A stretch of 64,000 bases of DNA from an uncultured Candidatus Binatia bacterium (GTDB lineage Bacteria; Desulfobacterota; Binatia; Bin18): positions 2,111,684-2,175,683 of the forward strand of contig OY282457.1 in assembly GCA_958296235.1 (NCBI GenBank), read 5' to 3'. Below the pieces are notes generated by a model. That model did no database searches and was not told the DNA's origin. It saw nothing but the letters and a program-made list of their open reading frames with translations. The first letter of the stretch is position 1. Each line of letters opens with the position of its first letter. Below are positions 59,122-63,432 of this stretch, piece by piece. The translations under genes and the position numbers were made by a program.

Positions 59122-59925
59122 TCAGTGTCCGTGCTGGGCGACAAAGTCCTCCAGCACCTGGTTAAATTCGAGCGGCCGTTCAATCTCGTAGCAGTGGCCG
59201 ACCTCTTTGAGCACGCGGAGTTCGGCCCCAGGAATCCGCTCGGCCAGAAAACGGTTGGCCGCGACTGGGGTCGCCTGGTCTTCCTCTCCGACCAGGACCA
59301 GTGTGGGCTGGGTAATCTCCTGTAAGCGGTCCGAGATATCCCACTGCCACACACCGTTGGGGTCTTCCAGACAGGCCAGGGCCGCCCGGCGCGGAAAGCC
59401 GCCCTCGTTCAGGAAGTTACTCTTAATCATCTGGCAGACCTCGGGCCGCTCGGTCCGGGTCCTGGTTGAGAAGCAGCGGGCAACCAGGTTTTCCGCGGCT
59501 GCCTCGTAATCGTTCTGGAAGCTGGCAATCAGCTCGGCGGTATCCAGGGTCTGGTGCAGGTTGGTCGCACTGCTGATGATGACATTCCCGGCGACCAGGC
59601 GCGGATAGTCGAGACTCATCTGCATGGCCCGCATCCCGCCCATCGAGTTGCCGACCAGAATAGCGCGATCAATGCCCAGGGCGGCCAGGGCGGCGGCATC
59701 GTCTGCCGCCATGTCCTGAATGGAATAGCCGGTGAGCGGCTTGGAGGAGAGACCGTGTCCGCGCGCCTCAATGACGATGCAGTGGTATTTGTGGGCCAGG
59801 ACTGGAGCCTGATACGCCCACAGCCAGGCGTTGGCCGAAAAGCCGTGCAAAAAGACCAGGGGAAACCCCTGTCCATAGTGGTTATAGTGAACCCGAACTC
59901 CCTTTTCTCGTTCGATGTACGGCAT
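59122..59925 (-). CDS. Alpha/beta-fold hydrolase
   Basis: 267 residues. The oxyanion-hole sequence FLHGFSANAWLW, nucleophile elbow GNSMGG, acid in LVGEEDQATPV and His in EVGHCYEIERP form the hydrolase triad. Typical of meta-cleavage or carboxylesterase hydrolases; substrate unknown. TAAGGAGGGAG precedes the ATG. Confidence 0.92.
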   Translation of the reverse strand: MPYIEREKGVRVHYNHYGQGFPLVFLHGFSANAWLWAYQAPVLAHKYHCIVIEARGHGLSSKPLTGYSIQDMAADDAAALAALGIDRAILVGNSMGGMRAMQMSLDYPRLVAGNVIISSATNLHQTLDTAELIASFQNDYEAAAENLVARCFSTRTRTERPEVCQMIKSNFLNEGGFPRRAALACLEDPNGVWQWDISDRLQEITQPTLVLVGEEDQATPVAANRFLAERIPGAELRVLKEVGHCYEIERPLEFNQVLEDFVAQHGH

Positions 59926-60087
59926 AGACTCCCTCCTTAACGCAGACAGCCATAGCCCGCTTTTCTCGGGCCTGTCAAGCTGCGGGCTGTTCCAGCTTAT
60001 TATGATTTAGATGTGCGTTGGATAGCGCTTCGTTGAGTCGTGGGATACGGTAACAGAAAGCCTGTCAGTACTGGCGCGGAGAACGAA

Positions 60088-60699
60088 ATGGAAAAAGTTT
60101 TTATCTATTGGGACGACTCCAATATTTTCATCAGCGCCCAAGCAATCGCAGCAGAGCGTGAGGGCGAGGCTGCACGTCCGCGGGTGCGTATCCATTTCCG
60201 CAATCTGCTGGAATTGGCGCAGGCAGGGCGATCAATTCATCGCGCTGTTGCGGTCGGCTCCATTCCGCCGGAGTTGCGTCACGTGTGGGACCACCTGAAA
60301 AACGAAGGCGTCGCCGTTCACTTGCTGGAACGTGGTGCGCTGCATGGTCGTGAACAGGGCGTGGATCAAGAATTGCAGACCTATATGCTCCGTGACACCG
60401 TGGACTACAACGGCGACCCGGGCATTGCGGTCATCCTGACCGGAGACGGTGCCGGCTTCGCTGACGGCGTGGGCTTTCACGCTGACTTGGAGCGTATGCA
60501 CCGCAAGGGATGGCGCATAGAAGTGCTGTTGTGGCGGCACAGTTGCAACCGCCGGATGCGGGAGTGGGCAGAAGAGAACGACCAATTCATCGCGCTGGAC
60601 GATTTTTACGACAGTGTGACGTTTCTGGAATCACCCGCACCGGGCCAGCCGGTCGCCGCCCCACGCTATGCCGTGCCGCTGAATCTGGCGGAGCGTTAG
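60088..60699 (+). CDS. NYN-domain (PIN-like) nuclease
   Basis: 203 residues of the NYN/DUF88 (LabA-like) fold, related to PIN RNases. The first acidic cluster is VFIYWDDSNIF (D-x-SN) and the second is LTGDGAGFADGVGF, where relatives show an acidic residue in the GDxDF position. A basic strand (RIEVLLWRHSCNRRMREWA) follows. GGAGAACGAA precedes the ATG. It is convergent with the HEPN-CBS gene, 60 bases apart. Proteins of this type act on RNA; the target is unknown. Confidence 0.8.
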   Translation: MEKVFIYWDDSNIFISAQAIAAEREGEAARPRVRIHFRNLLELAQAGRSIHRAVAVGSIPPELRHVWDHLKNEGVAVHLLERGALHGREQGVDQELQTYMLRDTVDYNGDPGIAVILTGDGAGFADGVGFHADLERMHRKGWRIEVLLWRHSCNRRMREWAEENDQFIALDDFYDSVTFLESPAPGQPVAAPRYAVPLNLAER

Positions 60700-60759
60700 C
60701 GATTGCGAATGTAGGGAGATGTCAAGTTGCACCGTTTCTGTTGGATTCCAGCCTCATTT

Positions 60760-61587
60760 TTATAGAATATCGGCTGAGGTCAAAATTCCGACCAGTTCAT
60801 TTTCACGCTTGGGATCAACGACAAGGAGCGGTTTCGCACCGACGCACTTCAATATGTCATTGTCGTTGATTTTTTCTTCCGGGTATATAGTTTTTGCCAA
60901 CAGAACGCGGAGCCTGTCGTTCCCATTGTCTTCTTTGATGGCGTCTTCTATTCTAGCGGCGAGACGTTCTCGGCGCTCTTGTTCACTCGGAGTACCACGA
61001 AGAAGATATCCAGCGACCGAGTGTTCCGAAATCAGTTTCCATTTCTTCTCGTCCTTGAACCAAACGGGGAGATAAGAAAAGCCATGCTTCAACATTTGTT
61101 GACGCGCATAACTGACTGGGTGCCACGGCTTGGCTTCAATTACGTCTCGCACCATAAATTGACAAACCTTAGATAATTGAGACATGAGTGCATCCTCAAG
61201 TATGATTGCGAGGTTCACGGCATGATCGGTCAGTATCCGTGCGTAAGCACCTTGATGTACAGCAGCATTTCTTGCGCGTCGTAATTCCTCGTAGAGAACG
61301 ATGAATTTGGTGTGGTACGCCGGGTACTTGGATACGATCTTGTGTGACAGTGACGACAAACCGGCCACGCATTTCAACTTCTTCCGGTATTCTCCGAGGT
61401 CGTCTATACTGCCCGTCAGTTGTTGACCCATCAACTCAAGCGTATGAATGACAGCCATGAATCCCTCGGCGTCTGCCAGGGCAGCGTTTCGGGCCGAGCG
61501 TAGTTCGTTGAGATAGAATACTCCGGCGCCGTCTTCCCGAAATAGGCTTTCAATCGCAGAAGCGCAGTGTGGGTTCTTTTCAGACAT
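60760..61587 (-). CDS. HEPN-like domain fused to a CBS pair
   Basis: 275 residues. The N-terminal about 140 residues are helical and contain RNAAVH (Arg106-x4-His111), the Rx4-6H motif of HEPN RNases and nucleotide-binding domains. The C-terminal part has two CBS motifs (146-197, ending LISEHSVAGYL; 225-275, ending ELVGILTSADIL), which in other proteins bind adenosine nucleotides. This would couple a ligand signal to an RNase. No good Shine-Dalgarno; an in-frame TGA upstream fixes the ATG. HEPN assignment rests on one motif and is tentative. Confidence 0.6.
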   Translation of the reverse strand: MSEKNPHCASAIESLFREDGAGVFYLNELRSARNAALADAEGFMAVIHTLELMGQQLTGSIDDLGEYRKKLKCVAGLSSLSHKIVSKYPAYHTKFIVLYEELRRARNAAVHQGAYARILTDHAVNLAIILEDALMSQLSKVCQFMVRDVIEAKPWHPVSYARQQMLKHGFSYLPVWFKDEKKWKLISEHSVAGYLLRGTPSEQERRERLAARIEDAIKEDNGNDRLRVLLAKTIYPEEKINDNDILKCVGAKPLLVVDPKRENELVGILTSADIL

Positions 61588-61621
61588 AGCGTCAGCGTTT
61601 GCAGTCCTTCATCATGAGGAG

Positions 61622-61771
61622 TCACAACTCCACATCGTCCAGCGGTGGCAATGTTTCATCCACATACGGGAACGCATCGTCAATCGGATCCAGGGTGGCG
61701 AGCACGGCAAGCAGTCCGTCCTTGCCGGAAGGCTCGACGGTCGATTGGTCTTCGTCTTTTTTGCGGCTCAT
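61622..61771 (-). CDS. 49-residue acidic protein upstream of the HEPN-CBS gene
   Basis: It reads MSRKKDEDQSTVEPSGKDG at the start and ends DDAFPYVDETLPPLDDVEL. The ending resembles the toxin-binding tails of VapB/MazE-type antitoxins, without the usual N-terminal DNA-binding domain. It ends 34 bases before the HEPN-CBS start on the same strand, giving a small-then-large gene pair as in toxin-antitoxin operons. Too short to be certain. Confidence 0.5.
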   Translation of the reverse strand: MSRKKDEDQSTVEPSGKDGLLAVLATLDPIDDAFPYVDETLPPLDDVEL

Positions 61772-61792
61772 AGGCTTTCCCCGCTACTCAAC

Positions 61793-63313
61793 TCACCCTC
61801 GGTCCAAGGCCCGGTACTGGATGGCCTGCGCGATATGAGCGCCGGTGATATCTTCCTCACTGGCGAGGTCGGCGATGGTGCGGGCGACTTTGAGAATGCG
61901 GGTATAGGCGCGGGCGCTCAGACCCAGGCGCTGCATGGCGTTTTCCAGGAGCTTTTCACCCGCGGCGTCGGGCTGACAATACGTGCGGATATCCCGGCTG
62001 GACATTTGGGCGTTGCAGAAAATTTTGCGCTGCTGAAAACGCTGAAGCTGAATTTCACGCGCCTGGTTCACCCGCGTCCGAATGGTTGCCGAGTCCTCCC
62101 CCGTTATTTTATCACTCAGCTCTTTATACTTGACCGACGGGACTTCGACCTGAATGTCGATCCGATCCAATAAGGGGCCGGAAATTTTCGCTCGATAGCG
62201 CTGGACCTGTTGCGGGGAGCAGGTGCACTCGTGCTGCGGGTCGCCGAAGAAGCCGCAACTGCACGGATTCATTGCCGCCACCAGCATGATGTCCGCCGGA
62301 TACGTGATGGACCCGACTGCGCGTGAAATCGTGACGCGGGCGTCCTCCAGGGGCTGGCGCAGGACTTCGAGGACGTTTTTACGGAACTCCGGCAGTTCAT
62401 CCAGAAAGAGCACGCCATGATGCGCCAGGGAGACCTCGCCCGGTTTGGGGACACTGCCGCCGCCGATCATGCCGGCGTCGGAGATGGTGTGATGCGGGGT
62501 GCGGAATGGCCGCGTCGCAATGAGGGCGCTGCCATTGAGGGTGCCGGCAACGCTGTGGACCTTGGTTGTTTCAATCGCTTCGGTCAGGGTCAGCGTGGGC
62601 AGAACGGTTGGCAGGCGTCTGGCCAGCATGGTCTTTCCAGACCCCGGCGGACCAACTAAGAGCAGGTTATGCCCTCCGCTGGCCGCGACTTCGAGGGCGC
62701 GTTTGACGTGTTCTTGACCTTTCACATCGTTAAAATCAACCTCGTACGTGGAGTGCCGGGTAAAGAGGGTATTGACGTCAACCCTGGTCGAGTCGAGTGG
62801 CCGCTCACCGTTCAGCAGCAGAAACGCCTCACTCAATGTGGACACCCCAAAGACCGCAACCTCGTCAACAACCGCGGCCTCAGCCGCGTTTTCTGTGGGC
62901 ACAATCAATCCCTTGAGCCCCTTTTCCTTTGCCATGACGGCTAATGGTAAAGCCCCGTGGACAGGCTTGACTCGTCCGTCGAGTGAGAGTTCGCCTAAAA
63001 TTGCGTGGGATTCGAGTTGGTCTTTGGTCAGCCAGCCTTCAGCCGCAAGAATGCCAAGGGCAATGGGCAGGTCGTAGGCTGACCCTTCTTTCTTGACATC
63101 CGCGGGGGCGAGATTGACGGTAATGCGTCGAGCGGGAAATTCGTAGCCGGAATTCTTTATGGCAGAGCGTACCCGGTCTTTGCTCTCTCGGACGGCTCCC
63201 TCGGGAAGGCCGACCGTTGTAAACTGGGGCAAACCCAGCGCCACATCAACCTCGACCTCAACCAACAACCCATCAATGCCAACCAATGCCCCGGACACCG
63301 CTGTAGAAAGCAT
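61793..63313 (-). CDS. comM: ComM/YifB family Mg-chelatase-like AAA+ ATPase
   Basis: A hexameric helicase that promotes branch migration during natural transformation. About 506 residues; an Lon-like N-terminal domain ([22 protein letters not shown]), Walker [15 protein letters not shown], Walker [10 protein letters not shown] and the [16 protein letters not shown] zinc-like region before the C-terminal lid. The start is chosen as [12 protein letters not shown]; a GTG at 63337 is possible. The 95-base gap to the next gene contains both upstream regions. Confidence 0.94.
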
Positions 63314-63432
63314 GCCTTCTGCTAACCGAAAGAGCACTATAAATCAATAAACACGAGTTGTCTGACAGTGGAGAGGTGATACGCTATACTCCGCATTGAA
63401 CCATTGTGTGACAAGAAAAAGGAGGGAGTGCT

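Follow-up and report, generated by a model that had tools for sequence, protein, structure and literature searches.

We analyzed a window of 64,000 nucleotides from the genome of an uncultured Candidatus Binatia bacterium, which is assembled as a single contig of 4.62 Mb. Two open reading frames lie next to each other on the minus strand of this window. The larger one (60760-61587) encodes a 275-aa protein, referred to here as HEPN-CBS, and the smaller one (61622-61771), located 34 nt upstream, encodes 49 aa. Upstream of the two ORFs is a comM/Mg-chelatase-like AAA gene (61793-63337, minus strand; Pfam Mg_chelatase, 3.5e-98). Downstream are an NYN-domain gene on the plus strand (60040-60699; Pfam NYN, 1.6e-8), described only as context, and an alpha/beta hydrolase gene (59122-59925, minus strand; Pfam Abhydrolase_1, 6.7e-32). 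The comM-like gene forms the left border of a variable locus and is common to the related genomes G395-G398, and the hydrolase gene forms its right border in G395, G397, G398, and G399. The NYN gene stands tail to tail with HEPN-CBS, with 60 nt between its end and the HEPN-CBS stop codon, and this convergence is kept in G397. In G395 and G398, the first 29 codons of the NYN gene are fused to a secreted-looking Sel1-repeat protein (L003 6864-7637 and L013 6399-7433).

The 49-aa ORF matched nothing in Pfam, PADLOC, or NCBIfam, and only its full-length homologues, in genomes of the same family, revealed its identity. The same sequence was found in six other genomes at 56-80% identity, and three of these (G396, G401, and G402) carry it as the C-terminal part of an 81-aa VapB antitoxin with an AbrB/MazE-type N-terminus. 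The full-length VapB proteins of G396 and G401, both of which were scanned, matched Pfam MazE_antitoxin at 2-3e-4, and the next gene in each genome encodes a PIN-domain VapC (PIN, 2e-16 and 1.5e-19). DNA alignment showed that the window ORF starts inside the VapB gene, past the DNA-binding domain, and no AbrB/MazE-type domain was found in the 49-aa ORF with Pfam. This truncated form is common to the window genome, G395, G398, and G399. Judged by homology, the small ORF is the toxin-binding tail of VapB, and its cognate toxin, of the PIN/VapC class, has been lost here; what the initial annotation described as a VapB-like tail is thus literally a VapB tail. It differs from the type II VapBC module, which pairs an AbrB/MazE-type VapB with a PIN VapC, in having neither a DNA-binding domain nor an adjacent vapC. 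No PIN gene lies beside the window ORF, and the PIN homologues elsewhere in the genome are 31-36% identical to the cognate VapC. In G398 and G399, the VapB tail follows, after about 12 nt, a HicB-type antitoxin gene (L013 7513-7848 and L019 1153-1488) that has no evident toxin, which makes two successive antitoxin pieces, each on its own.

The initial annotation had read the two ORFs as a two-gene unit of a HEPN-CBS toxin and a 49-aa acidic peptide that neutralizes it. Both ORFs do exist, adjacent and on the same strand, with a gap of 34 nt in the window and of about 21 nt in G395, and the small ORF remains open and constrained in several pairwise comparisons. However, a neighborhood survey did not find the pairing conserved: the 49-aa ORF adjoins HEPN-CBS in only two of five same-genus loci, those of the window and G395, and in none of 12 plasmid or viral loci and neither of two paralogue loci. 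Each gene also occurs without the other. HEPN-CBS stands without the small ORF in G397 and outside the genus, and G399 carries the VapB tail with no HEPN-CBS. In G398, the tail lies 1.5 kb from HEPN-CBS, beside the hydrolase gene, and in G396 a full VapBC is found about 1 kb downstream of HEPN-CBS. In addition, a VapB tail has its own toxin class, PIN/VapC. Adjacency in one genome had given an antitoxin fragment the look of a partner, and sequence comparison does not support a two-gene unit or a role of the tail as the partner of HEPN-CBS.

The pattern of selection on the VapB tail argues in the same direction. Among the truncated copies, dN/dS ranged from 0.05 to 0.40 with binomial P values down to 5e-5, based on small counts. 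Constraint was significant in comparisons with G398 or G399 and weakest in the pair in which the tail adjoins HEPN-CBS (window-G395, dN/dS = 0.40, P about 0.06-0.10, not significant), the reverse of what would be expected for an antitoxin of HEPN-CBS. We therefore consider a toxin-antitoxin unit highly improbable. The same pattern allows for an independent role of the tail, as an orphan antidote against a VapC encoded elsewhere, which would be compatible with our preferred explanation of the locus. That the same truncated form has been kept open under constraint in four species, in two of them behind a toxin-less HicB gene, is consistent with such a role. However, part of the constraint may predate the truncation, the original stop codon of the tail has been lost in G395, and the PIN homologues of the window genome are only distantly similar to the cognate VapC. 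On balance, an orphan antidote appears possible but somewhat doubtful.

We further analyzed the domain structure of the large protein. A typical HEPN domain is an RNase that works as a dimer; adenine nucleotides are bound by CBS pairs, which often serve as AMP/ATP sensors. The HEPN part (residues 21-138; 61174-61527) had no Pfam match in the window protein itself. One relative, L050, gave weak matches to the HEPN families HEPN_RiboL-PSP (0.002) and DUF4145 (0.0055), and a sequence profile of this part matched no solved structure. An AF2 model of residues 21-138 is a helical bundle (helices 2-18, 20-38, 44-56, 59-67, 75-89, and 93-117), built from only seven sequences and of low confidence (pLDDT 64-67 across the HEPN models, 64 for these residues alone). 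When this model was compared with solved structures using VIA, the HepT/HEPN structure 8xdj ranked best (Z = 9.2, rmsd 2.7 over 100 residues), a Z in the range that the tool cautions on for helical bundles. The structures 8xdj, 8xeh, and 8yuf aligned at Z 9.0-9.2 (rmsd 2.7-2.9 over 99-100 residues), and 1wty, 1wwp, 1jog, and 7ae6 at Z 7.2-7.8. Thus, the first seven rows (Z 7.2-9.2) were all HepT or other HEPN/substrate-binding structures, above FAT-type and unrelated helical bundles. Foldseek alone found nothing significant for the HEPN model in the PDB or among viral models.

Conservation within the family points to the same domain. An Rx4H motif, R106-N-A-A-V-H111 (61255-61272), noted in the initial annotation and predicted to be catalytic, is present and conserved: across 18 aligned sequences, the window protein and 17 relatives, R106, N107, and H111 (RNx3H) are invariant, as are R30, R33, and E41. 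As is canonical for HEPN domains, the motif comes where helix 3 ends; the helix stops at residue 108, just before H111. Residue 108 (61264-61266) is Ala in the window protein and Asp in all 17 relatives (RNAAVH versus RNDxxH). Based on both the motif and the structural matches, residues 21-138 probably form a HEPN domain, within the low confidence of the model.

The CBS pair (residues 137-275; 60763-61179) was recognized by both sequence and structure. Pfam CBS matched residues 143-185 of the window protein (E = 1.2e-5) and all 14 of 14 relatives, and the family profile matched solved CBS proteins in the PDB (9zni and 3kh5). In VIA, residues 137-275 of the full-length model aligned with the CBS pairs of AcuB, MtCorB, and DarB at Z 9-10 (up to 9.9). 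The second CBS motif contains T270-S-A-D273, a canonical ribose/phosphate-type motif; T/S-x-x-D/E is kept in CBS2 across relatives and is mostly absent from CBS1. The ligand would be an adenine nucleotide or a derivative of one. The two CBS motifs of the initial annotation are borne out by these results, and so is the HEPN-CBS fusion, with CBS resting on Pfam and VIA, and HEPN on the invariant RNx3H and the VIA ranking of a low-confidence model.

Fusions of this kind have been described before. Fusions of HEPN to nucleotide-sensing CBS domains, predicted to be active RNases, were reported in 2013, with Pelobacter gi 118580987 and alr3009 as examples of HEPN-CBS(-HD) proteins (Anantharaman et al., PMC3710099); some of these carry an HD domain, and the named examples may or may not belong to the same family as the window protein. 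In DS-11, a CBS + HEPN anti-phage protein published in 2026, the HEPN catalytic residues and Y157 of the CBS part are required for defense (PMC13092281). DS-11 (NCBIfam NF053863, CBS domain-containing anti-phage protein; DefensePredictor) resembles the window protein in combining a CBS pair and a HEPN domain in a single protein. However, the window protein scored 16 bits against its cut-off of 260, through the CBS part only, and is not a member. CBS matches lie at approximately 60-198 of the 305 positions of the DS-11 model, which would place CBS before HEPN, whereas HEPN precedes CBS in the window protein; judged from these model coordinates, the domain order is apparently reversed. Because HEPN-CBS fusions have been known since 2013, the curated model does not include this family in DS-11, and the order appears reversed, we regard the protein as a variant of a described kind. 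The earlier statement that no described system has this layout thus holds for the pair of ORFs but not for the fusion itself. HepT, of the HEPN-MNT (HepT/MntA) system, provides the closest solved folds to the modeled residues 21-138; in contrast to that system, no nucleotidyltransferase partner was recognized beside HEPN-CBS in the loci read, and a CBS pair is fused instead.

To place the protein in a wider context, we surveyed the distribution of its relatives. HEPN-CBS is patchy within the genus, being found in five of seven genomes, one of which (G396) has an internal TAG. A phylum-level search of 395 sampled genomes gave a match only in the window genome and none in the other 394. Beyond the genus, the family is known from plasmid and viral searches and one genome-contig search only. 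Copies were found on beta-proteobacterial and Deinococcus plasmids (Burkholderia, Cupriavidus, Acidovorax, and Deinococcus) and on four IMG/VR viral contigs, including one inovirus-like and two tailed-phage-like contigs, as called by reading their gene content. A second IMG/VR scan recovered the same contigs and no new ones, and tblastn in phage records found no HEPN-CBS. No model in PADLOC, PHROGs, or NCBIfam covers the family. dN/dS was 0.23-0.38 for HEPN-CBS and 0.23-0.36 between the window copy and the same-genus copies, indicating that HEPN-CBS is under purifying selection.

Several of these copies lie beside genes of phage defense. In Deinococcus sp. QL22, HEPN-CBS (L043 5887-6648) lies in a type I restriction region, where it shares a 13-nt overlap with hsdR and has hsdM 3.7 kb downstream, and in Cupriavidus oxalaticus the Gabija gene gajB lies upstream. 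On the viral contigs, HEPN-CBS adjoins an Mrr-type restriction endonuclease in one case and an HNH nuclease in the inovirus-like one, and it is carried as cargo on a tailed-phage contig. In the window genome, its neighbors are toxin-antitoxin debris and housekeeping genes, with no defense island. No partner gene common to HEPN-CBS loci was found. Small ORFs upstream of the Burkholderia and Cupriavidus plasmid copies were rejected as partners because they are unlike each other and have no similarity to VapB. A second HEPN-CBS gene in the window genome, 43% identical (L017 5487-6320; G000:C1:3771492-3772307), stands alone, with no small partner and no defense island. G398 also has a second copy, and both second copies are in ordinary chromosomal context. 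These sequence data describe a small, mostly single-gene family that occurs in phages, on plasmids, and beside phage-defense genes.

Taken together, the locus probably holds two unrelated things side by side, a single-gene nucleotide-gated HEPN-CBS RNase, likely serving phage defense, and a VapB tail. The HEPN domain would act as a dimeric, metal-independent RNase with R106 and H111 as predicted catalytic residues, and the C-terminal CBS pair would bind an adenine nucleotide or derivative, switching the RNase on or off. RNA cleavage would then stop growth or kill the infected cell. By analogy, defense is the most likely function, given the hsdR/hsdM, gajB, Mrr-type, and HNH neighbors, carriage on plasmids and phages, and the precedent of DS-11 (PMC13092281). 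That precedent also lends plausibility to the nucleotide-gated RNase of the initial annotation, but not to the small partner said to hold it.

Alternatively, the protein may be an RNase that responds to stress or energy charge and tunes host RNA stability. CBS pairs commonly sense AMP/ATP, and the ordinary setting of the second copies in the window genome and G398 would fit a host function. Such a role was put forward for HEPN-CBS fusions in 2013 (PMC3710099). Less easily reconciled with it are the patchy presence in the genus, with one interrupted copy, the single match in the phylum sample, and the association with plasmids, phages, restriction-modification, and Gabija, and we consider this alternative rather unlikely. 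Returning to defense, a broader and tentative proposal has two parts. Proteins with HEPN ahead of CBS would form a family of their own, separate from DS-11 and not represented in PADLOC, PHROGs, or NCBIfam, and would be widespread on phages and plasmids as single-gene abortive-infection RNases that respond to a nucleotide signaling infection. Separately, the VapB tail, which has no DNA-binding domain, would be retained in the genus as an antidote peptide that acts alone. Should HEPN-CBS proteins of both domain orders prove protective against phage, gating of HEPN RNases by nucleotides would be a solution that recurs, and the family would offer compact one-gene systems for identifying the infection signal that a CBS pair reads.

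Finally, the start of the HEPN-CBS gene indicates how the arrangement may have arisen. A 4-nt leader and about 21 codons (61525-61591, minus strand) are 76% identical over 67 nt to L004 7993-8059 (E = 5e-9), the 5' end of a higA-like antitoxin gene (Pfam HTH_37, 1.2e-7) that comes after vapBC in G396. This higA-derived start was found in the window and in G395. Because the start is borrowed from a higA-like gene where the VapB tail adjoins, the arrangement appears to have arisen when a toxin-antitoxin array situated between comM and the hydrolase gene was rearranged. The simplest history consistent with the sequences is that HEPN-CBS was brought in when a vapBC-higA array underwent an internal deletion or recombination event. 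Within the genus, vapC would have been deleted from a vapBC-higBA array, and the higA-like start joined to the HEPN-CBS body, leaving the VapB tail just upstream. With Ala at position 108 and a foreign start region, the window copy could be impaired. It might even be a decaying, inactive gene, considering that D108A is unique to it, that the G396 copy is interrupted, and that sister genomes have no HEPN-CBS; however, its ORF is full length, every invariant residue is kept, and dN/dS against G395 is 0.23, which makes decay improbable. The stretch from comM to the hydrolase gene (59122-63337 in the window; L003, L004, L013, L014, and L019) is a variable locus that carries different sets of vapBC, higBA-like, hicB-like, Sel1, and HEPN-CBS genes from genome to genome. 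In G399, only about 26 codons of comM are left at the same locus (L019 938-1015).
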